In this document: piece by piece, positions 9,997 through 20,774 of the stretch
How the letters are laid out: every line of letters begins with the position of its first letter
How positions within the stretch are numbered: position 1 is the stretch's first letter
Source: Actinomycetota bacterium
GTDB taxonomy: Bacteria > Actinomycetota > Geothermincolia > Geothermincolales > RBG-13-55-18
Assembly (NCBI GenBank): GCA_030019255.1
Contig: JASEFK010000015.1
Coordinates: 1 to 51,904 of the forward strand
Direction of reading: 5' to 3'
DNA: 51,904 nucleotides
The notes under the pieces: generated by a model
The model's input: only the letters and a program-made list of their open reading frames with translations
The model's database searches: none
What the model was told of the DNA's origin: nothing
Program-made: the position numbers and the translations under genes

Positions 9997-10844
9997 ATGA
10001 AGGACTTCGGTGACAGAATGGTGGTGGTCACCGGGGCGGCCAGCGGAACAGGTAAGGCCATCGCCGAGGCCTTCGCCCGCCGGGGGGCTGCCCTGGCCCT
10101 TGCGGACCTGGACGCGGATGGACTGAGGAGAACAGCGGAGGAGCTGAAAAGTCACGGCGTCCCGGTATACACACAGGTGGTGGATGTCTCCGCCGCTCTC
10201 CAGGTGGAGAGTTTCTGCGAGAACGTATACCGCGAGTTCGACAGGGTGGATGTCCTCTGCAACAATGCCGGGGTCTCGGCCGGGGCTGTTCGAGGACATA
10301 ACCCTTGGGGACTGGGAATGGATAATGGGGGTAATCTCTGGGGGTCGTCAACGGGTGCCGCTATTTCTATCCCCGCATGGTGGAAGCGGGAGGGGTCCTC
10401 ATCGTCAATATCTCCTCGGGCCTGGCCCTGGCCCCGCTGCCCGGCTCCATTCCCTACTGTACCACCAAGTACGTCGTGGTGGGATTTTCCGAGACCCTCC
10501 GCGCCGAGGCGGCCCGGCACAACATTGGGGTGACGGTGGTATGCCCGGGGTTCATCCTTACCAACATCTTCCGTTCCTCGCGACAGCGAACCGTGTTACC
10601 CGGGGATAAGCCCGAGGACTCCGTGGTCCGCACCGAGAGGCTTCTCTCCCGGCGTCGCTGTGACGCGAGGAAGGTGGCGGAGAAGGTGGTGGAGGCGGTG
10701 CAGAAGAACCGGGGAGTGGTTCCCGTTTGCTGGGAGGTTCACCTGGGGGGCGCCCTTCATCGCCTGAGCCGCGGGCTTTATGCCCGACTCCTGGCTTTAC
10801 TAACCCGGGCCTGGTACCGTGGGCTCGATGGGGAAGGCACGTGA
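9997..10844 (+). pseudogene. Short-chain dehydrogenase/reductase broken by three clustered indels
   Basis: An SDR is readable across three frames. Frame 1 carries the TGAASGTG cofactor loop, DLDADG and NNAGVSA. It shifts at the G4 run 10282-10285 (one base extra) into GLFEDITLGDWEWIMGV, returns near 10332 (one base short) for NLWG, and shifts again at the G5 run 10340-10344 (one base short) into VVNGCRYFYPRMVEAGG. The rest is continuous: NISS with the catalytic Ser, and YCTTK with the catalytic Tyr and Lys. All three breaks lie within about 65 bases, two of them in G runs, while both flanks stay open. Sequence error or very recent decay are both possible. Restored, it would be a classical NAD(P) SDR of about 280 residues. 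Confidence 0.8.
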
Positions 10845-11110: not shown

Positions 11111-11145
11111 TCTTCCAAAATGGCGAAAAAGAGGGGGTGATCGGC

Positions 11146-12960
11146 TTGCTGGTGGAAGGGAGAGAGCTTCTGGCTCGTGCTCTAGGTAAGGCGGGTTTAC
11201 GGTTCGCGGTTGGGAAAGAGAGTGGGGTGCTTGGTCTAACCATCCGTCTCCTGCGGGAGCGGGAAGGGGTGAGGACCATCACGCCCCTGGGGGACATAGC
11301 CGGCCCCTTCATGGCCTACGGGAACACTTATTACCATCATTTCCCAGCGGCCGTCCTATGCTCCACCCCGGCGGAGGCGGCCAACGCCTTTACCGGCCTG
11401 GGCACGGCCTGGGCGGACAAGATCCCCCTCCTCATGATGACCGTGCGTTCCCCCAGGCGCTTGGAGATGAAGCTTCCGGGCAGCACCCAGGGTGAATCCT
11501 ATTCCGCTTTCACTAAGTGGGGTACCCGGGTGTTGGACTGGGAAGACATACCAGTGGCCCTGGGCCAGGCCCTCCGGGAGGCCCTCAACGGGTGCCATGG
11601 CCCCGTGCACCTGGACATCGAGGAAGAGGCGCTCCTGGAAAGCAGGGAGGTGAAAGAGGAGGAACTGGAGGACTTGATCGAAAAGGGACTAGGCCCCCTG
11701 GAGGCCAAGGTCATGGAGGGCGATCCGGAACTCGTGGAAAAGGGGCTCAAGACGCTTTTGGAAGCGGAACGTCCCCTCATCGTATCCGGGGGAGGGGTTA
11801 TCCACGCCCAGGCCTGGGAGGAGATGGACCGGCTGGTGCGCATGCTCGGCGTGCCCGCCACCACCACCGTGGCCGGGGAGGGAGGTGTCCGGGGTGACAA
11901 TCCTTGCTACATCGGCGGTCCGAGCTACGTGGGCGGCGAGGCCTTTCACCGGGCCATCAAGCGCGCGGATTGCGCGCTGGTGGTGGGTGCCGCCCTGGGC
12001 GGCCTGGAGGGATTCGGGCAGCCGCCCTTCTGGAACCCGGACATCCGCTTCATCCAGGTGGACGTGGACCCGGTGAACATGTGCCTGAACATCCCGGTGG
12101 AGGTATCCATCCTGGGAGACGCCGGGGCGGTGCTCAAGCAGATGATCCGCCTGGTGGAGGAGGGGGCGGCCGGTCCCAACCCCGCTCATGCGGCTTGGCT
12201 CCAGCACCTCCAGGAGGTGAGGAGGAGGTGGCGTTCGCGCGTCGAGGGAGAGGCCCATGACCGCTGGCCACTCATCCACCAGGGTTACCTGGCCAGGACC
12301 ATCAGGGAGGTTTTGCCGCCCGGCACCTTCCTGGTCATCGACGGCGGCAACACAACCCTCTGGGCGGGGATGTTCTGCATGGAGCACAAGCCCAAGAGCG
12401 CCCTCTTCCCGGCGGGGATGGGCACCCTGGGGTGCGGCATCCCCGTGGCCATGGGGGTCAAGGCCGCGGACCCCGACCGCCCCCTGGCGGTCATCCAGGG
12501 GGACGGGTCCTTTCTCTACAACGTGCAGGAGCTGGAGAACGCCCGTCGCCTGGGCATGGACTTCGTGGTGGTCATCTTCAACGACGGGTGCTGGAACATG
12601 ATCAAGGGGGCCCAGGACCTCTTCTTCGGGAGCCGGCGGGTGGGGTCCATCCTGGGGGATATCGACTACGCGGCCGTGGCGCGCGGCCTGGGTTGTTACG
12701 GAAGGAGGGTGTCCCGCGCCTCGGATATCGCACCTGCCCTGCGGGAGGCGTTGGAGGCGGGAGGGCCGGCGGTGGTGGACGTCCTGGTGGACCCGGACTG
12801 TTTCCCGGAGACCCTGGCCAGTTTCGCGTTGGGCGAGTTCGAGGGTGTCCGCATCAATCCCCTGCGGGCCCTGGGGATTCCCAAGATGAAGATAGACCGG
12901 CGCCTGGTAAACCGGGCCAAGTACGCGGCCAACATACTCCTGGACTTGGATTTCCGATAG
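11146..12960 (+). CDS. ThDP enzyme, PP-competent subunit (PYR Glu replaced by Asp)
   Basis: The 604-residue protein has the acetolactate-synthase/benzoylformate-decarboxylase layout: PYR domain (about 1-165), central domain (about 190-330) and PP domain (about 365-560). The PP cofactor motif is intact: G452-D453-G454-S455 to N479 (IFND). In the PYR domain the activating Glu position reads LGDIAGPFMAYG, with D50 in place of Glu, and the usual GPG turn is STPAEAAN. The next gene shows the opposite pattern, so the two probably form a heteromer. TTG 11146 is chosen because GGGGGTGA (11133-11140) ends five bases before it; GTG 11137 lies inside that SD. The 2-oxoacid substrate is unknown. Neighbouring reductase, SDR and thioesterase genes suggest 2-oxoacid or acyl-CoA catabolism. 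Confidence 0.85.
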   Translation: MLVEGRELLARALGKAGLRFAVGKESGVLGLTIRLLREREGVRTITPLGDIAGPFMAYGNTYYHHFPAAVLCSTPAEAANAFTGLGTAWADKIPLLMMTVRSPRRLEMKLPGSTQGESYSAFTKWGTRVLDWEDIPVALGQALREALNGCHGPVHLDIEEEALLESREVKEEELEDLIEKGLGPLEAKVMEGDPELVEKGLKTLLEAERPLIVSGGGVIHAQAWEEMDRLVRMLGVPATTTVAGEGGVRGDNPCYIGGPSYVGGEAFHRAIKRADCALVVGAALGGLEGFGQPPFWNPDIRFIQVDVDPVNMCLNIPVEVSILGDAGAVLKQMIRLVEEGAAGPNPAHAAWLQHLQEVRRRWRSRVEGEAHDRWPLIHQGYLARTIREVLPPGTFLVIDGGNTTLWAGMFCMEHKPKSALFPAGMGTLGCGIPVAMGVKAADPDRPLAVIQGDGSFLYNVQELENARRLGMDFVVVIFNDGCWNMIKGAQDLFFGSRRVGSILGDIDYAAVARGLGCYGRRVSRASDIAPALREALEAGGPAVVDVLVDPDCFPETLASFALGEFEGVRINPLRALGIPKMKIDRRLVNRAKYAANILLDLDFR

Positions 12961-13052
12961 GGGGTGAGAGGAATGTACCTCCCGGAATTTCGTTTAGGAG
13001 TCCGTTCGGGCGGAACCCTGGACCTCGGATAGGGGGTGAGTGTTGTGTACCT
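12955..13052 (+). repeat. 72-base-period duplication at the ThDP gene junction
   Basis: Positions 12955-12980 and 13027-13052 match in 21 of 26 bases. Each copy contains a TAG stop, the SD GGGGGTGAG, and a start codon followed by TACCT. The copies cover the end of the first ThDP gene and the start of the second, so the junction appears to have been duplicated in tandem. Confidence 0.65.
12973..13032 (+). other. 19-codon ORF inside the duplicated junction
   Basis: ATG 12973 has its own SD (GGGGGTGAGAGG) and reads MYLPEFRLGVRSGGTLDLG before TAG 13030-13032. It starts like the second ThDP protein (MYL) and ends like the first (LLDLDFR versus TLDLG). It is best seen as a duplication relic; it might still be translated and keep ribosomes moving between the two genes. 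Confidence 0.4.
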
Positions 13053-14625
13053 GCTCAACGGCGGGGACCTGGTGGCCCGGACGCTGGCCCAGGAAGGGGT
13101 GGACCACTTCATCGGCATAGTGGGGGGCCAGGTTCTTCCGCTCTTCGACGCCGTGGGTCGCCACCCGGGCCTCCGGCTGGTGGTGCCTCGGAACGAAGCC
13201 GCGGGAGCCATGATGGCCGACGGGTACGCCCGCGCCTCGGGAAAGCCGGCGGTGATCATCTCCACGGTGGGAGCGGGGGCCATCTACTCGGCGGCGGGCA
13301 CGGCGGGTGCTTGGGCGGACCATGTCCCAATATTTTCCATATCTCCCCAGGTTCAGACCTGGAAGATGTACCCGGCGCAGGAGTCCCTGCAGGGTTGTTA
13401 CCAGGCAGAGATGATGGCTGGGATCACGCGCTGGCACTGCATCGCCTACAGCTGGAAGCGCATACCGCGGCTGGTGCAGAGAGCCCTGCGGGAGGCCATG
13501 TCCGGCGAGAAAGGACCGGTGCACATGGACGTTCCCGTGGACGTGTTCTACGAGACCCACCTGGTCACCGAGCGGAAGCTCCGCCGCCTCATACCTCCCC
13601 CGGGGAGCAGCCGCTTTCAGGGGCACTTTCACCCCGCGGCCGAGGACTTGCGGGAGGCCATCGATATCCTGGAAGCGTCTTCCAGTCCGGTCCTGGTGGC
13701 CGGCCTGGGGGTTCTGAGGGAATCCGCGTGGGATGCGGTTTCTGCGCTCGCGGAAAGATTGTCCCTCCCGGTGGCCCTCACCCCGGCCGCGCTGTCCGCC
13801 ATCGCCAGTGAAGACCCTTCCTTCGCCGGGATACTGGGCCACCCCGCACTTCCCGGCCTCCGGGAGGTGGTGGGCGGCGCGGACGCGATTCTTTTTCTGG
13901 GAGCCACCATCTCCGAGCAGGAGGCGGTCATGGAGACGGTGGATCTCTCCCGGGCGCGGATCATCCAGACTTCCCCTCAACCGGAGCTCCTGGGTGCACT
14001 GGGAAAATTCAATGCCGCCTTGGCCGGCGACGTGGCCTCCATAGCCGGAAGCCTCGCCGGAGAGGCAGGAGAGGTCCCCGTGGAGAGGAGGAGCTGGCGG
14101 GAAAAGGCCCGCGAGGCCTATCTGCGCGATGCCCGGGCGCTCAGGGAGGAGGCCCACGGTAACGCTTCTGGGCGGGCTATTTCCGCGCTGGGGGAGAGCC
14201 TGGACCCCGGGGATTATCTGGTCCTAGACGGACCCGATTCCACTTACTGGGGGTCCCTTCTTTGCCCGGCGAAGAACGCCGCCACTCGAATCCGGTCCTG
14301 GGGGCTCAGGGGTAATGGGTATGGGCTTCCCCTCGCCCTGGGGGTCAAGCTGGCCCGACCACGGGACAGGGTGATAGCCCTGTGCGACACGGAAGCCCTC
14401 ATGCACCATATCCAGGAACTGGATACCGCCAGGCGGGAGGACATCCGGGTGGTGATATGCGTGGTAGGGGAGAGGTACCGCTGGAAGGAAGTGGCGGTGG
14501 GGTTCGGCCTGCACGGGGAGAAGGCCTCGACCCCCGCCGAGTTGATGGTCGCCCTGGACAGGGCGGAGAGAAGTGGCAGGGCGGCCGTGGTGGACCTCAC
14601 CGGGTTCGAGGCCGGTGGCCGTTGA
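13045..14625 (+). CDS. ThDP enzyme homologue, PYR-competent subunit (GDG...N motif lost)
   Basis: This 526-residue paralogue has an orthodox PYR domain: VVPRNEAAGAMMADGYAR carries the activating Glu (E51), followed by VGAGAIYSAAGTAGAWAD. The PP domain keeps the fold (GLRGNGYGLPLALGVKLARP, IQELDTARRE) but the cofactor motif GDGS reads C447-D448-T449-E450, and the metal-ligand Asn is V474 (CVVGERY). It should not bind Mg-ThDP in its own PP domain. Because active sites form between the PYR and PP domains of different chains, it can still supply Glu to the upstream protein. GTG 13045 is chosen, five bases after GGGGGTGA; GTG 13036 is within the SD. The two genes are 84 bases apart with no terminator. 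Confidence 0.85.
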   Translation: MYLLNGGDLVARTLAQEGVDHFIGIVGGQVLPLFDAVGRHPGLRLVVPRNEAAGAMMADGYARASGKPAVIISTVGAGAIYSAAGTAGAWADHVPIFSISPQVQTWKMYPAQESLQGCYQAEMMAGITRWHCIAYSWKRIPRLVQRALREAMSGEKGPVHMDVPVDVFYETHLVTERKLRRLIPPPGSSRFQGHFHPAAEDLREAIDILEASSSPVLVAGLGVLRESAWDAVSALAERLSLPVALTPAALSAIASEDPSFAGILGHPALPGLREVVGGADAILFLGATISEQEAVMETVDLSRARIIQTSPQPELLGALGKFNAALAGDVASIAGSLAGEAGEVPVERRSWREKAREAYLRDARALREEAHGNASGRAISALGESLDPGDYLVLDGPDSTYWGSLLCPAKNAATRIRSWGLRGNGYGLPLALGVKLARPRDRVIALCDTEALMHHIQELDTARREDIRVVICVVGERYRWKEVAVGFGLHGEKASTPAELMVALDRAERSGRAAVVDLTGFEAGGR

Positions 14626-15833: not shown

Positions 15834-15938
15834 ATCTTGGGGTGGATTGGGATAACGGGTCCGAGCACGTGGCAGGAATCCTGGTCCCGCGGGAAGTTCT
15901 CCGTGTCCGTGTCAGGAAAGGTGAAGGGGAGATCTGAG

Positions 15939-18900
15939 TTGGGAATTTTCAAGCCGTCCAAGGGGAAGCTTATCAAGCCCAACATCGAGAAGATGGAGGC
16001 CAAGCGCGACGTTTCCGGACTGATACAGGCGCTGCGGCACAATGACGTGAACGTCCGCATAAATGCCGCCCTGGCCCTGGGAAAGCTCAAGAGGGCACGG
16101 GCGGTGGCTCCACTCATAGAGACGCTGCGCGATGCCGACGAGGACGTGCGCTGGGCGGCAGCCTGGGCCCTGGGGGAGATAGGAAAGCCCGCCGCCCGGC
16201 CTCTCATCCAGGCCCTTCGGGACGAGGACGGCGACGTGAGGTGGAAGGCTGCCTGGGCTTTGGAAAAGATTGGAAAAGTGGTCGTGGACTCGCTCATCGA
16301 TGCCATGCGCACCGAGAGCGGTGAGGCCAAGGCCAAGGTAGCCCTGGTGCTGGGTTCCATCGGGGACGTACGGGCGGTCCGTCCGCTGGTGAAGGCCCTC
16401 AAGGACGAGGACGACAACGTGCGCTGGGCGGCAGCCTGGGCCCTGGAGAAGCTGGGGCCAACGGCGGTGAAATATCTCATCAACAATCTCACCCTGGAGG
16501 ATACCGAGGCCCGCAAGGAGGCGGCTGTCGCCCTGGGTGTGATCCGCGACGAATCGGCCATCGACCCCCTCATCGCGGCCATGCGCGACGAGGACAGGGA
16601 GGTGCGCAGGGAGGCGGCCGCAGCCCTCGTCTCCCTGAACAGCCGCAAGGCCATCGCCGGGCTGGAGTCTTACCTGGGCAGCGGGGACGAGGACCTCCGC
16701 CGCCTGGCGGCGGCGGTCCTGGCCAAGCTTGGCTGGCAGCCGAGGCGGGAGGAGGACCGCGTTTTCCTGCACCTGGTGAACCGGGACTGGGATAAGCTGG
16801 CGGGGATGAACGCGGAATCCTTCCCCCACCTTCTGCGCGCCCTGAAGAAGGAGGGGTGGGAGACCCGGAGCAGGGTGGCGGCCCTGGTCCGTGAAAACTC
16901 CCAGAGGCTGCTGCCCCCGCTTATGCAGGCCCTAGAGGACGAGGACGAGGAGCTGCGCCGGGAGGCGGCCCTGCTTCTCAAGGAGATGGGCGGAGCCGAA
17001 ACCCTGGATGTCCTCTTGCAGGCCATGCGGAACCGCGACTGGTTCGTGCGCCGGAGCGCGACCCTGGCTCTGGGAGAGGTGGGTGATCCCCGTTCCCTCG
17101 ACGCCCTGATCCAGGCCCTCAAGGACGAAGATGAGGACGTGCGCCGCGCCGCCGCCTGGGCCCTGGGCAAGATGGGTGATCTGGCCACGGAGCCGCTCAT
17201 GGAACTTCTGCTGCAGGGTGAGGTGGAGGAGCGCCGGGGTGCGGCCTGGGCTTTGGGGGTCATAAGGGACGCTCGGGCCTCGGAGGCTCTGGTCCGGGCC
17301 CTCAAGGACGAAGATGAGGACGTGCGCCGCGGCGCCGCCTGGGCCCTGGGCGAGCTCGGCGAGCAGGCCCTGCCTTCCCTGGACAGGGCTCTGGAGCTGG
17401 AGGGAGTGGCCGAGATAGCCCGCGAGATCGTATCCCGAATCCTGTCCGGGGAGGGGCGCGAGGCGGAAGCAGCCGAAATGGAAAAGGTCCTCGAGGCGGA
17501 AGAGGAAGCTTTCTTGAGTCCCTTGGAGCTGGAGGAAATCAGCCTGGAATCGGGGATGCCGACGCTCGAGGAGGAAGTGGTCGAGGAGGCGGCGGCCCAG
17601 GTGGTATCGGAAGTGCTGGGAAAGATGGGCTGGAAGCCGGGAGAGGAGGAGGAAAAGGCCGACTACTTCATCGCCAGGCGACAGTGGGACAAGGTTACGG
17701 AGATGGGTGAGCTGGCGGTGGATTCCCTGATCAATGCCCTGGGGGACGAGGACGAGGAGGTCCGGTCCAGGGCGGCCTGGGCCCTGGGGGTGATCGGCAG
17801 CCCTCGTGCCGTAGACGCCCTGGTATCCGCGCTGGAGGATCCGGTGCGGGATGTGAGGGTGAAGGCCGCGGGGGCACTCAAGAAAATCGGTACCCCGTGC
17901 ACCGATGCCCTCATCCAGGCCCTGCAGGAAGGAGGGGACGAGCTGCGCAAGGAGGCGGCCAGGGTTCTCGGCGACATTAAGGACCTGCGGGCCATACCCT
18001 TCCTGGTGAAGGCCATGGGGGATCCCGAGGAGAAGGTGAGGGGGAGAGCGGCCAACGCCCTGGAGAAGATAGGCGAGCCCGCCGTGGAAGCCCTGCAGGC
18101 GACACTGTCGGCCGAAGATCCCAACGCCCGGGCTCTTGCGGCTTCCGTCCTCACCAGGATGGGCCTGAAGCCATCCGAATTGGTGGCCGCGGAGGGAGGC
18201 CCGGCGATGGAGAGGCTGGAAGGGACCAAGGCGAGGGAGCTGATCCTGGAGGGCAAATGGGAGGAGGTGGCCACGCTGGGGGAGAACGCCGTAGAGGCTC
18301 TCCTGGAGGCTCTCGAAGACCAGGAGCCCGAGGTTCGTCGCGGAGCGGCCTGGGCCCTGGGGGTCATCAGGAATCCCCGCGCCGTGGAACCCCTGGTATC
18401 CCGCCTCCGGGACGCGGACGAATCGGTGCGCAGCGGTGCCGCCTGGGCCCTGGGGGTCATTGGTGATCCCCGCGGCGTCCCCGCGCTTGTCGATGCGCTA
18501 CGGGACAGCAGTCCGGAGGTCCGACGTAAGGCCGCCTGGGCCCTGGGGGAGATAGGGGAGCGGGAAGCTGTCGACGCCTTGGTGCAGGTCCTCGAGGACG
18601 AGGACCTGGACGTACGCCGGGTGACTTTCCTGGTGCTGGAAAAGCTAGGCTGGAAACCCACGGAGGAAGAGGAGGTGCGGCGGCTCATCGCCGAACGGGA
18701 GTGGGACCGCCTGGCGGGGATGGGGGACGTGGCCGTGGAATCCCTCATCGAGGCCTTGTCCGCCGAGGACGGAGAGACGCGCATGAAGGCTGCCTGGGCT
18801 CTCGGGGAGATCGGGGACCGGCGGGCACTCGAGCCGCTTCTCGATGTCCTCGAGGACCTTGAGCCCCAAGTGAGGGAAAAGGCGGCCAGGTCCCTGGGGA

Positions 18901-20213
18901 AGCTGCGCGATCCCGGCGCACTGGAAGGATTGCTGCGCCTCCTGGACGACGAGGACGAAGGAGTAAGGGCCGCCGCCTCCGAGGCCCTGGGGGAGCTGGG
19001 CTGGAAGCCAGAGGAAGTGGCGGCGGAGGAAACCGAGGAATTGGTGGTCGCGGAGGCCAAGGAAGTGGTATCCGTGGCGGAAGAAGAGGCCGCCGTGGAA
19101 GAGATGGAAGAAGTTACCATTTCTTCGGAGGTGGGACCGGCCGCGGAGGTGGTCGGTGAGGGAGAACCGCCACGAGAGGAAGCGACGGTCGAGGAGGTAC
19201 TCGGGGCGACGGAGCTCACGAGGGAGGTTGAGGTGCCGGCAGGAGAGCCGGTGGCCGTTTCCGCTCCACAAGAAACCGGGGTGGAAAAGCTCGAGGAGGC
19301 CGAGGCACCCCTGGAGGAAATCCTCTTGCCCGCGGTCGGGAAGGAGGAGGCCGTTCTATCGGGTGCTTCCGAAGAAAAGCCGCTGGAGGAAATACCGGTC
19401 GGTGCCATGTCCTCCCACGCCGAAGCCCTGATCGCCCAGCGCAGCTGGAAGGAATTGCTTGCCCTGGGCGAGGAAGCGGTGCTCCCCCTGGCGGAGGTAT
19501 TGAGGAGTGGGGAGAAGGGTGAACGGAAGAAGGCGGCCTTCATCCTGCGCCAGATAGGACTGCCGGCGGTGCCGACCCTGCGCAACCTGCTCCACGACCG
19601 CAAGGAGGAAGTACGCGCCGTGGCCCGGGATATCCTGGCCGAATTGGGCTGGAAGACGGGGGAGGAGGAGGAACTCGCCCAGAGCCTCATCCGAGAAGGG
19701 AAGTGGGAAGAGGTGGCCCACCTGGGGAAGCCGGCCGTGCTTCCGCTGGTGAGAACCTTGCGTGACGCGGAGGTGGAGAAAAGGCGCATGGCGGCATCTC
19801 TTCTGGGTAACCTCCCCGATGCGGCTGCCCTCGAGCCGCTGCTTTCCGCCCTCCAGGACGAGGACGGGGAGGTAAGAGGAAGGGCCGCCAGGGCCCTGGG
19901 CAAACTCGGGGACGCCAGGGCCTGCCGACACCTGGCGGAGGCTCTCTCCGACGAAGATGCGGACGTAAGGGCACGGGTGGCCGCCTCCCTTGACCGTCTT
20001 GGTTGGACACCCGCGGACGACCGCGAAAGAGCCCGATATTTCATGGCTACCCGGCAGTGGAACAAGCTGGCCGAGATGGCGGAGGCGGCGGAAGAAGCGC
20101 TGCGGGAGAGGCTGGAAGATGCGGATCCAGAGGTCAGGGAGATGGCCCGCTGCCTGCTCGACGACATACGCGGATCCCGGGAATTCAAGGAGCTTCTCCG
20201 AGAGCTGGACTGA
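15939..20213 (+). CDS. Giant HEAT/PBS-lyase repeat protein (1,424 aa)
   Basis: Nearly the whole protein is about 30-residue HEAT repeats of PBS-lyase type (for example AAWALGEIGKPAARPLIQAL with D-E-D-x-x-V-R joints). Seven larger modules start with a Trp-anchored helix: (R/E)xWDKLxxMG followed by AVxxLIxAL, at about residues 284, 583, 774, 921, 1169, 1256 and 1373. Most are preceded by an LGWKPxxEEE linker. Two Glu/Val-rich unstructured linkers lie at about 510-565 and 1028-1150. HEAT solenoids are protein-protein scaffolds; no enzyme motif is visible. TTG 15939 with SD AAGGGGAG gives MGIFKPSKGKL, which fits HEAT-protein starts better than upstream codons. No signal peptide or membrane segment is present. 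Its partner is unknown. Confidence 0.8.
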   Translation: MGIFKPSKGKLIKPNIEKMEAKRDVSGLIQALRHNDVNVRINAALALGKLKRARAVAPLIETLRDADEDVRWAAAWALGEIGKPAARPLIQALRDEDGDVRWKAAWALEKIGKVVVDSLIDAMRTESGEAKAKVALVLGSIGDVRAVRPLVKALKDEDDNVRWAAAWALEKLGPTAVKYLINNLTLEDTEARKEAAVALGVIRDESAIDPLIAAMRDEDREVRREAAAALVSLNSRKAIAGLESYLGSGDEDLRRLAAAVLAKLGWQPRREEDRVFLHLVNRDWDKLAGMNAESFPHLLRALKKEGWETRSRVAALVRENSQRLLPPLMQALEDEDEELRREAALLLKEMGGAETLDVLLQAMRNRDWFVRRSATLALGEVGDPRSLDALIQALKDEDEDVRRAAAWALGKMGDLATEPLMELLLQGEVEERRGAAWALGVIRDARASEALVRALKDEDEDVRRGAAWALGELGEQALPSLDRALELEGVAEIAREIVSRILSGEGREAEAAEMEKVLEAEEEAFLSPLELEEISLESGMPTLEEEVVEEAAAQVVSEVLGKMGWKPGEEEEKADYFIARRQWDKVTEMGELAVDSLINALGDEDEEVRSRAAWALGVIGSPRAVDALVSALEDPVRDVRVKAAGALKKIGTPCTDALIQALQEGGDELRKEAARVLGDIKDLRAIPFLVKAMGDPEEKVRGRAANALEKIGEPAVEALQATLSAEDPNARALAASVLTRMGLKPSELVAAEGGPAMERLEGTKARELILEGKWEEVATLGENAVEALLEALEDQEPEVRRGAAWALGVIRNPRAVEPLVSRLRDADESVRSGAAWALGVIGDPRGVPALVDALRDSSPEVRRKAAWALGEIGEREAVDALVQVLEDEDLDVRRVTFLVLEKLGWKPTEEEEVRRLIAEREWDRLAGMGDVAVESLIEALSAEDGETRMKAAWALGEIGDRRALEPLLDVLEDLEPQVREKAARSLGKLRDPGALEGLLRLLDDEDEGVRAAASEALGELGWKPEEVAAEETEELVVAEAKEVVSVAEEEAAVEEMEEVTISSEVGPAAEVVGEGEPPREEATVEEVLGATELTREVEVPAGEPVAVSAPQETGVEKLEEAEAPLEEILLPAVGKEEAVLSGASEEKPLEEIPVGAMSSHAEALIAQRSWKELLALGEEAVLPLAEVLRSGEKGERKKAAFILRQIGLPAVPTLRNLLHDRKEEVRAVARDILAELGWKTGEEEELAQSLIREGKWEEVAHLGKPAVLPLVRTLRDAEVEKRRMAASLLGNLPDAAALEPLLSALQDEDGEVRGRAARALGKLGDARACRHLAEALSDEDADVRARVAASLDRLGWTPADDRERARYFMATRQWNKLAEMAEAAEEALRERLEDADPEVREMARCLLDDIRGSREFKELLRELD

Positions 20214-20270
20214 GCCGGAGGCCCGGATAAAGGATCGAAATCGGGGAGCGAACTCTCGGGAGGGTCGACC

Positions 20271-20774
20271 TTGGAGTTGAGGGATGTCATCCTGGGGAGG
20301 AGGAGTATACGCCGGTTCCTGGACCGTCCCTTGAGCGAGGAGGATACGCATGCCCTGCTGGAAGCGGGGCGCTGGGCGCCCTCGGGGCTGAACAACCAAC
20401 CCTGGAGGGTGGTCCTGGTGGAGGACCGCTCGAAGGCCGCGGACTTGTCGCGTTGCACCCGCTATTCGTCCATCGTCGCGGAAGCGCCTTTGCTCATCGC
20501 CGTTTTCCTTGACCATTCTTCGTCCTACGACCGGGACAAGGATGTCATGTCCGTGGGGGCCTTCATCCAGAACATCCTCCTGGCGGCGCACGACAGGGGA
20601 CTGGGCGCCGTGTGGCTGGGCGAAATTCTCCGCGAAAAGGAAAGGGTGAGGGAATTACTGGAAGTCCCTCCCGAATTCGAGCTTATGGCGGTGATCGCCG
20701 TGGGATACCCGGCCGAAAGTCCGGCCCGCAGGGAGCGCAAGGCCCTTGACGAGCTGATATACAGGAGATATTGA
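20271..20774 (+). CDS. Nitroreductase-family flavoprotein
   Basis: The 167-residue protein has the FMN-binding start RRSIRRFLDRPL, WAPSGLNNQPWRVV, the central GAFIQNILLAAHDRGLGAVWLG and the end VGYPAESP. Members use FMN and NAD(P)H to reduce nitro, quinone, enone or related groups and are normally dimers. TTG 20271 follows GGGAGGG six bases upstream. It lies 57 bases after the HEAT gene and may be co-transcribed. The native substrate is unknown. Confidence 0.85.
   Translation: MELRDVILGRRSIRRFLDRPLSEEDTHALLEAGRWAPSGLNNQPWRVVLVEDRSKAADLSRCTRYSSIVAEAPLLIAVFLDHSSSYDRDKDVMSVGAFIQNILLAAHDRGLGAVWLGEILREKERVRELLEVPPEFELMAVIAVGYPAESPARRERKALDELIYRRY

Follow-up and report, generated by a model that had tools for sequence, protein, structure and literature searches.

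The gene pair and its surroundings

The window, i.e., the whole stretch of 51,904 nt that was analysed, belongs to a genome of 2.93 Mb (43 contigs, 98.8% complete) from an uncultured actinobacterium of the class Geothermincolia and carries two adjacent genes, designated A and B, which encode three-domain paralogues of ThDP-dependent enzymes. Both genes are complete between the coordinates listed below. The starts assigned in the preliminary description (TTG 11146 and GTG 13045) held and are preferred over those of longer open reading frames because each follows a good Shine-Dalgarno sequence at 5-nt spacing.

11133..11140, + strand: Shine-Dalgarno GGGGGTGA of gene A, 5 nt before TTG 11146 (sequence)
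11146..12960, + strand: gene A, putative ThDP enzyme subunit, 604 aa, PP half-site intact, PYR half-site degenerate (sequence, Pfam, alignment)
12947..12980, + strand: imperfect 34-nt direct repeat at the A/B junction, copy 1
13019..13052, + strand: imperfect 34-nt direct repeat, copy 2, containing the Shine-Dalgarno and start of B
13032..13039, + strand: Shine-Dalgarno GGGGGTGA of gene B, 5 nt before GTG 13045 (sequence)
13045..14625, + strand: gene B, full-length ThDP paralogue, 526 aa, PYR half-site intact, PP half-site degenerate

The two repeat copies at the junction are 79% alike and lie 72 nt apart, so that the Shine-Dalgarno is present twice. A and B are separated by 84 nt in the window and by much less in relatives. 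Directly after the stop of A, the codons (TAGGGGGTGAG) form the Shine-Dalgarno of B in the window and in several relatives, which is consistent with coupled, roughly equimolar translation of the two genes. A and B share one reading frame in the window and in five relatives (L085, L088, L089, L090 and L092), with a single TAG or TAA between them in the relatives; this is likely to be a coincidence, as in other relatives the genes are out of frame. Promoter-like sites were seen upstream of A only, and inspection of the locus revealed no terminator-like site between A and B. The earlier suggestion that the genes share one promoter is thus plausible as a sequence-based inference, although it remains unproven.

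Immediately 5' of A, a short-chain dehydrogenase (SDR) gene is broken over at least two frames (9997-10844), with Pfam adh_short detected in each half (N-terminal, 9997-10533; C-terminal, 10377-10844); either gene decay or misassembly would explain this. In G013 and G028 the pair has intact SDR genes next to it, four of them in tandem in G013. Further along the window, positions 15837-20213 encode a 1458-aa repeat protein, HEAT-like by eye, with a long open frame of 931 aa on the opposite strand (17663-20458); it is conserved beside the pair in G005 and G009.

Domain content and active-site motifs

Pfam domains TPP_enzyme_N, TPP_enzyme_M and TPP_enzyme_C (PF02776, PF00205 and PF02775) were found in that order in both A and B, all above the curated cut-offs. 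No NCBIfam equivalog cut-off was reached by either protein among the equivalogs shown. Against TIGR00118, the acetohydroxyacid synthase large subunit model with a cut-off of 538, A scored 236 bits and B 219 bits; the true IlvB of this genome is encoded elsewhere, on contig C16, and scores 856 bits. On the heteromer reading proposed below, the automatic labelling of A and B as two "acetolactate synthases" is wrong on both counts. The best PDB matches by sequence and fold were acetohydroxyacid synthase (AHAS), 2-hydroxyacyl-CoA lyase (HACL), benzaldehyde lyase and oxalyl-CoA decarboxylase; for HACL and oxalyl-CoA decarboxylase the likeness is one of fold and sequence only.

For the active-site positions, E. 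coli IlvI, IlvB, Gcl, Oxc and PoxB served as alignment references, together with family C. The latter is a third, single-gene ThDP family of Geothermincolia (G000:C1:247188-248843, L053); it has all motifs intact, meets no NCBIfam cut-off and is the nearest relative of A and B. The following positions were assigned in the window:

11293..11295, + strand: A D50 (GAC), at the catalytic PYR Glu position (alignment)
12499..12507, + strand: A G452-D453-G454, GDG motif, Mg-diphosphate binding (alignment)
12580..12582, + strand: A N479, Mg ligand of GDG...N (alignment)
13195..13197, + strand: B E51 (GAA), conserved PYR-domain glutamate (alignment)
14386..14394, + strand: B D448-T449-E450, in register with the GDG of A, motif lost (QEL anchor)
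14467..14469, + strand: B G475, in register with A N479, Mg ligand lost (alignment)

A therefore lacks the Glu and B lacks GDG...N, so that a catalytic Glu and GDG...N are supplied only by the pair together and by neither chain alone. The preliminary description had given A an intact GDG (452-454) and N479 with D50 in place of Glu, and B a retained E51, all of which held: D50 falls exactly in the catalytic Glu column of IlvI, IlvB, PoxB and Oxc, and E51 occupies the same column. It had read C447-D448-T449 and V474 at the degenerate site of B, which is one residue off; an ungapped anchor on the conserved QEL (A 461-463, B 457-459) gives D448-T449-E450 and G475 as the correct register, and the loss of GDG and Asn stands in either register. 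The losses in both proteins are larger than first described. The PYR domain of A also lacks the GG turn and the GPG loop, which B retains as GGQ and GAG, and in the PP domain of B about 26 residues are deleted just after the Asn position.

Motif states were read in 14 A and 13–14 B sequences. The catalytic Glu column contains E in IlvI, IlvB, Oxc, PoxB, family C and all B proteins, V in Gcl, and D in 12/12 close A orthologues. None of the 13 B sequences with PP-domain coverage has GDG, which is replaced by DTE, DSE and similar, with Gly in place of Asn; the hydrophobic residue before GxG is an invariant Leu in A and N, F, V, T, I or C in different B proteins. A survey of the superfamily reported Glu51 in 94% of members and Val in 3%, with G443 98% and D444 91% conserved (PMC3534367). 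Set against the frequencies of Glu51 and G443, the invariant Asp of A and the consistent lack of GDG in B indicate more than chance loss. Pseudogenes or an assembly error were considered and rejected, as the substitutions and the deletion in B are shared by every orthologue covered; low dN/dS in all domains (see below) also counters the pseudogene reading.

Distribution, reciprocal divergence and order of losses

A search of 59 relatives, 31 genomes of the class and 396 Actinomycetota genomes identified 14 genomes with both A and B and none with only one of them. All 14 carriers are among the 31 Geothermincolia genomes, and none was found outside the class among the 396 Actinomycetota; named carriers include Candidatus Solincola daggyaiensis and Ca. 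S. tengchongensis (NCBI: Ca. Geothermincolia). Twelve carriers are of the window's type, and two are divergent at ~38% and ~32% identity. The finding that would have refuted the heterodimer according to the preliminary description, namely A or B alone with the same substitutions, was thus searched for in those genomes and not found. A is followed directly by B in 13 genomes, with order and strand constant in all; in G028, the first 117 codons of B follow A before the contig ends, and B of G002 is also cut by a contig end.

The possibility of a widespread family was rejected after a contig scan of 84,980 GTDB species, in which orthologues occurred only in Geothermincolia and all matches elsewhere were ordinary IlvB-type proteins. 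The scan required exact matches to two short peptide patterns and could have missed remote relatives. While A and B stay adjacent, their flanking genes vary between genera: SDR, ketopantoate-reductase-like and thioesterase genes lie upstream of the pair in some, and acyl-CoA synthetase, 3-hydroxyacyl-CoA dehydrogenase, SCP2, MaoC or acetoacetate-decarboxylase-like genes adjoin it in others. These neighbours hint at acyl or keto metabolism; as no gene is constant, they were not relied on for function.

If only the PYR domain of B together with the PP domain of A forms a working site, these two domains are expected to evolve slowly, and they do. Mean amino acid distances over 45 genome pairs were 0.554 (PYR), 0.267 (middle domain, MID) and 0.236 (PP) for A, and 0.205, 0.606 and 0.458, respectively, for B. 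The PYR domain of A thus diverges 2.3x faster than its PP domain, and the PP domain of B 2.2x faster than its PYR domain, with the predicted direction in 45/45 genome pairs for each protein; these pairs share branches and are not 45 independent tests. In the single-gene control, family C, PYR is slightly slower (0.323 versus 0.417 for PP), so that the skew of A is opposite in direction and that of B larger. Column permutation gave p = 5e-5 for A and for B, with columns treated as independent. The middle domain tracks the PP domain of its own chain, being conserved in A and fast in B, and likeness to family C resides in MID and PP of A and in PYR of B.

The ratio dN/dS is below 1 in every domain, indicating purifying selection throughout, A-PYR and B-PP included. 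dN is lowest in B-PYR and A-PP, and every close pair tested shows this pattern, the divergent G019/G020 among them. Glu, GG and GPG of B and GDG...N of A are fully conserved, although the identity per domain between the two lineages is only 21–49%; nowhere in the pair is conservation higher than in the PYR domain of B, which holds the cofactor motifs.

In the tree, the clades of A and B are sisters (97/92) and adjoin family C, with the divergent pair branching first in each. The join of A and B is weaker in quick trees without long-branch rows (SH-aLRT 69 and 84). In G019/G020, the PP site of B is already dead, and A lacks GG and GPG but keeps its Glu, which places the loss of the B PP site and the onset of A PYR decay before the Glu-to-Asp change. 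We suggest that the pair arose by gene duplication, with the PP site of B lost first and the PYR site of A decaying later, a decay that ended in Glu-to-Asp in the window's lineage.

For joint modelling, A and B were translated by stop read-through in one frame (13045-11146 = 633 codons) with a flexible linker. In-frame read-through is possible in the window and five relatives, and the joint alignments with such rows (A6 and A7) were correctly aligned; it serves as a modelling device only, since the stop codons are genuine and A and B are not in frame at other loci. AlphaFold2 returned a mean pLDDT of 79 and a pTM of 0.83, and a pTM of 0.81 for a second species. Two roughly equal halves placed independently would hardly exceed a pTM of ~0.55, by our own reasoning, and the halves are therefore taken to be confidently placed against each other. 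That the A:B interface is the canonical one is inferred from the family, and the distance from E51 to GDG was not seen. Searched against PDB chains, the model matched 2-hydroxyacyl-CoA lyase/synthase, AHAS, benzaldehyde lyase and oxalyl-CoA decarboxylase with TM ~0.85 of the target, one half only; such matches say nothing about the dimer.

A putative one-site heteromer and known ThDP enzymes

Motifs and rates strongly indicate that the PYR and PP functions reside on different gene products, in the absence of a biochemical demonstration. The predictions of a heterodimer were met, i.e., co-occurrence with adjacency, reciprocal conservation, parallel phylogenies and a confident joint model. We therefore regard A and B as, very probably, two subunits of one obligate heteromeric ThDP enzyme with a single catalytic site. 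The computed support consists of motifs, co-occurrence, reciprocal rates, phylogeny and joint-model confidence; the dimer and its one-site chemistry are inferred, with no biochemistry. The heterodimer with one complete and one dead site proposed in the preliminary description is supported in this sense, its assembly and activity remaining inferences.

In the superfamily fold, each site forms where the PYR domain of one chain meets the PP domain of its partner. The basic unit of the enzyme would be an A:B dimer, two of which probably associate. At the working interface, GDG...N of the A PP domain is predicted to hold Mg2+ and the diphosphate of ThDP, and E51 of the B PYR domain to activate N1' of the aminopyrimidine towards the ylide, with GG and GPG also contributed by B. 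The A-PYR/B-PP interface, without both motif sets, would be dead and kept as a non-catalytic scaffold. Substrate specificity may come from A PP, the A middle domain and the B PYR pocket. The reaction is unknown; by analogy to the nearest structures (HACL, benzaldehyde lyase and AHAS), carboligation, cleavage or decarboxylation of a 2-oxo or 2-hydroxyacyl compound would be likeliest.

Several observations count against the heteromer. Asp50 does not vary among the 12 close A sequences, which would not be expected if a dead site drifted freely; it is possible that it is structural, with G49-D50-x-x-G53 heading a helix. A-PYR and B-PP remain under purifying selection, and the sister relation of A and B is only moderately supported without long-branch rows. 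Finally, the active glyoxylate carboligase has Val in this place, and the absence of Glu is by itself no proof that A is inactive.

The best surviving alternative, which we consider unlikely, is that A is a whole catalytic homodimer without the glutamate, similar to glyoxylate carboligase, and B a bound regulatory or stabilising pseudoenzyme. The activity of glyoxylate carboligase with Val (PMC3534367) and the invariance of Asp50 favour this reading. However, the A PYR domain has lost GG and GPG, motifs that are for the most part retained in E. coli Gcl (VPGAAINP, TSGPAG), it diverges faster than A PP, and a mere regulator would not need the strongly conserved cofactor motifs of B PYR. A real A:B heterodimer with a non-catalytic role as a ThDP-binding sensor or scaffold is very unlikely. 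In its favour, no substrate or pathway has been identified and the flanking genes vary; against it, B Glu, GG and GPG and A GDG...N are fully conserved, and pure binding would not need Glu. Equally improbable are independent homodimers, neighbours by chance and each with unusual chemistry, for although A and B each have three domains and an intact, selected reading frame, B lacks the Mg/diphosphate site in every genome, and strict co-occurrence and mirror-image rates would be left unexplained.

On the preferred one-site A:B heteromer, if true, the pair represents a different route to heteromeric ThDP enzymes and a clear case of subfunctionalisation within one active site, in which the sequence of the losses can still be traced. 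ThDP enzymes pose an alternating-site question, and a natural one-site dimer would allow the need for two communicating sites to be tested. A and B are likely to be the first obligate heteromer of full-length paralogues in the ThDP decarboxylase superfamily, a natural one-site dimer formed by reciprocal half-site decay, with a Glu-keeping intermediate surviving in related genera. No full-length complementary ThDP paralogue pair was found described in the open-access literature, where a shared site of this kind was found only for small split-domain enzymes. The preliminary description had called full-length heteromeric paralogues unusual and a ComDE-type split the closest parallel.

As proposed for A/B, the ThDP site combines PYR and PP parts from separate products in ComDE sulfopyruvate decarboxylase, RhiEF phosphonopyruvate decarboxylase and LumK/LumL quinoxaline decarboxylase, the last of which requires co-expression (PMC12141560, PMC12746152). 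Two-subunit ThDP decarboxylases were described in 2025 as rare, previously known only from rhizocticin and coenzyme M biosynthesis, with LumKL as the third (PMC12746152), and all those in PMC12746152 and PMC12141560 have one domain per subunit. A (604 aa) and B (526 aa) do not fit this pattern, being three-domain paralogues, whereas LumK and LumL are 20 and 23 kDa; moreover, RhiEF and ComDE are described as ancestral split forms, while A/B would be secondarily degenerate with one of two sites dead. AHAS, HACL, benzaldehyde lyase and oxalyl-CoA decarboxylase share the three-domain fold of A/B and have their sites at the dimer interface (PMC8760513) but are homo-oligomers with two equivalent sites per dimer, and A/B meet no listed NCBIfam cut-off. 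Glyoxylate carboligase, like A, has no PYR glutamate; it has Val rather than Asp, is homo-oligomeric and keeps most other PYR motifs, and A reaches 176 bits against its cut-off of 791. Heteromeric ThDP enzymes, as proposed for A/B, also include the 2-oxoacid:ferredoxin oxidoreductases (PMC5020499). E1 alpha/beta is likewise a heteromeric ThDP enzyme. These, however, belong to other ThDP families, in which PP and PYR are separated by a domain split and not by complementary decay of paralogues.
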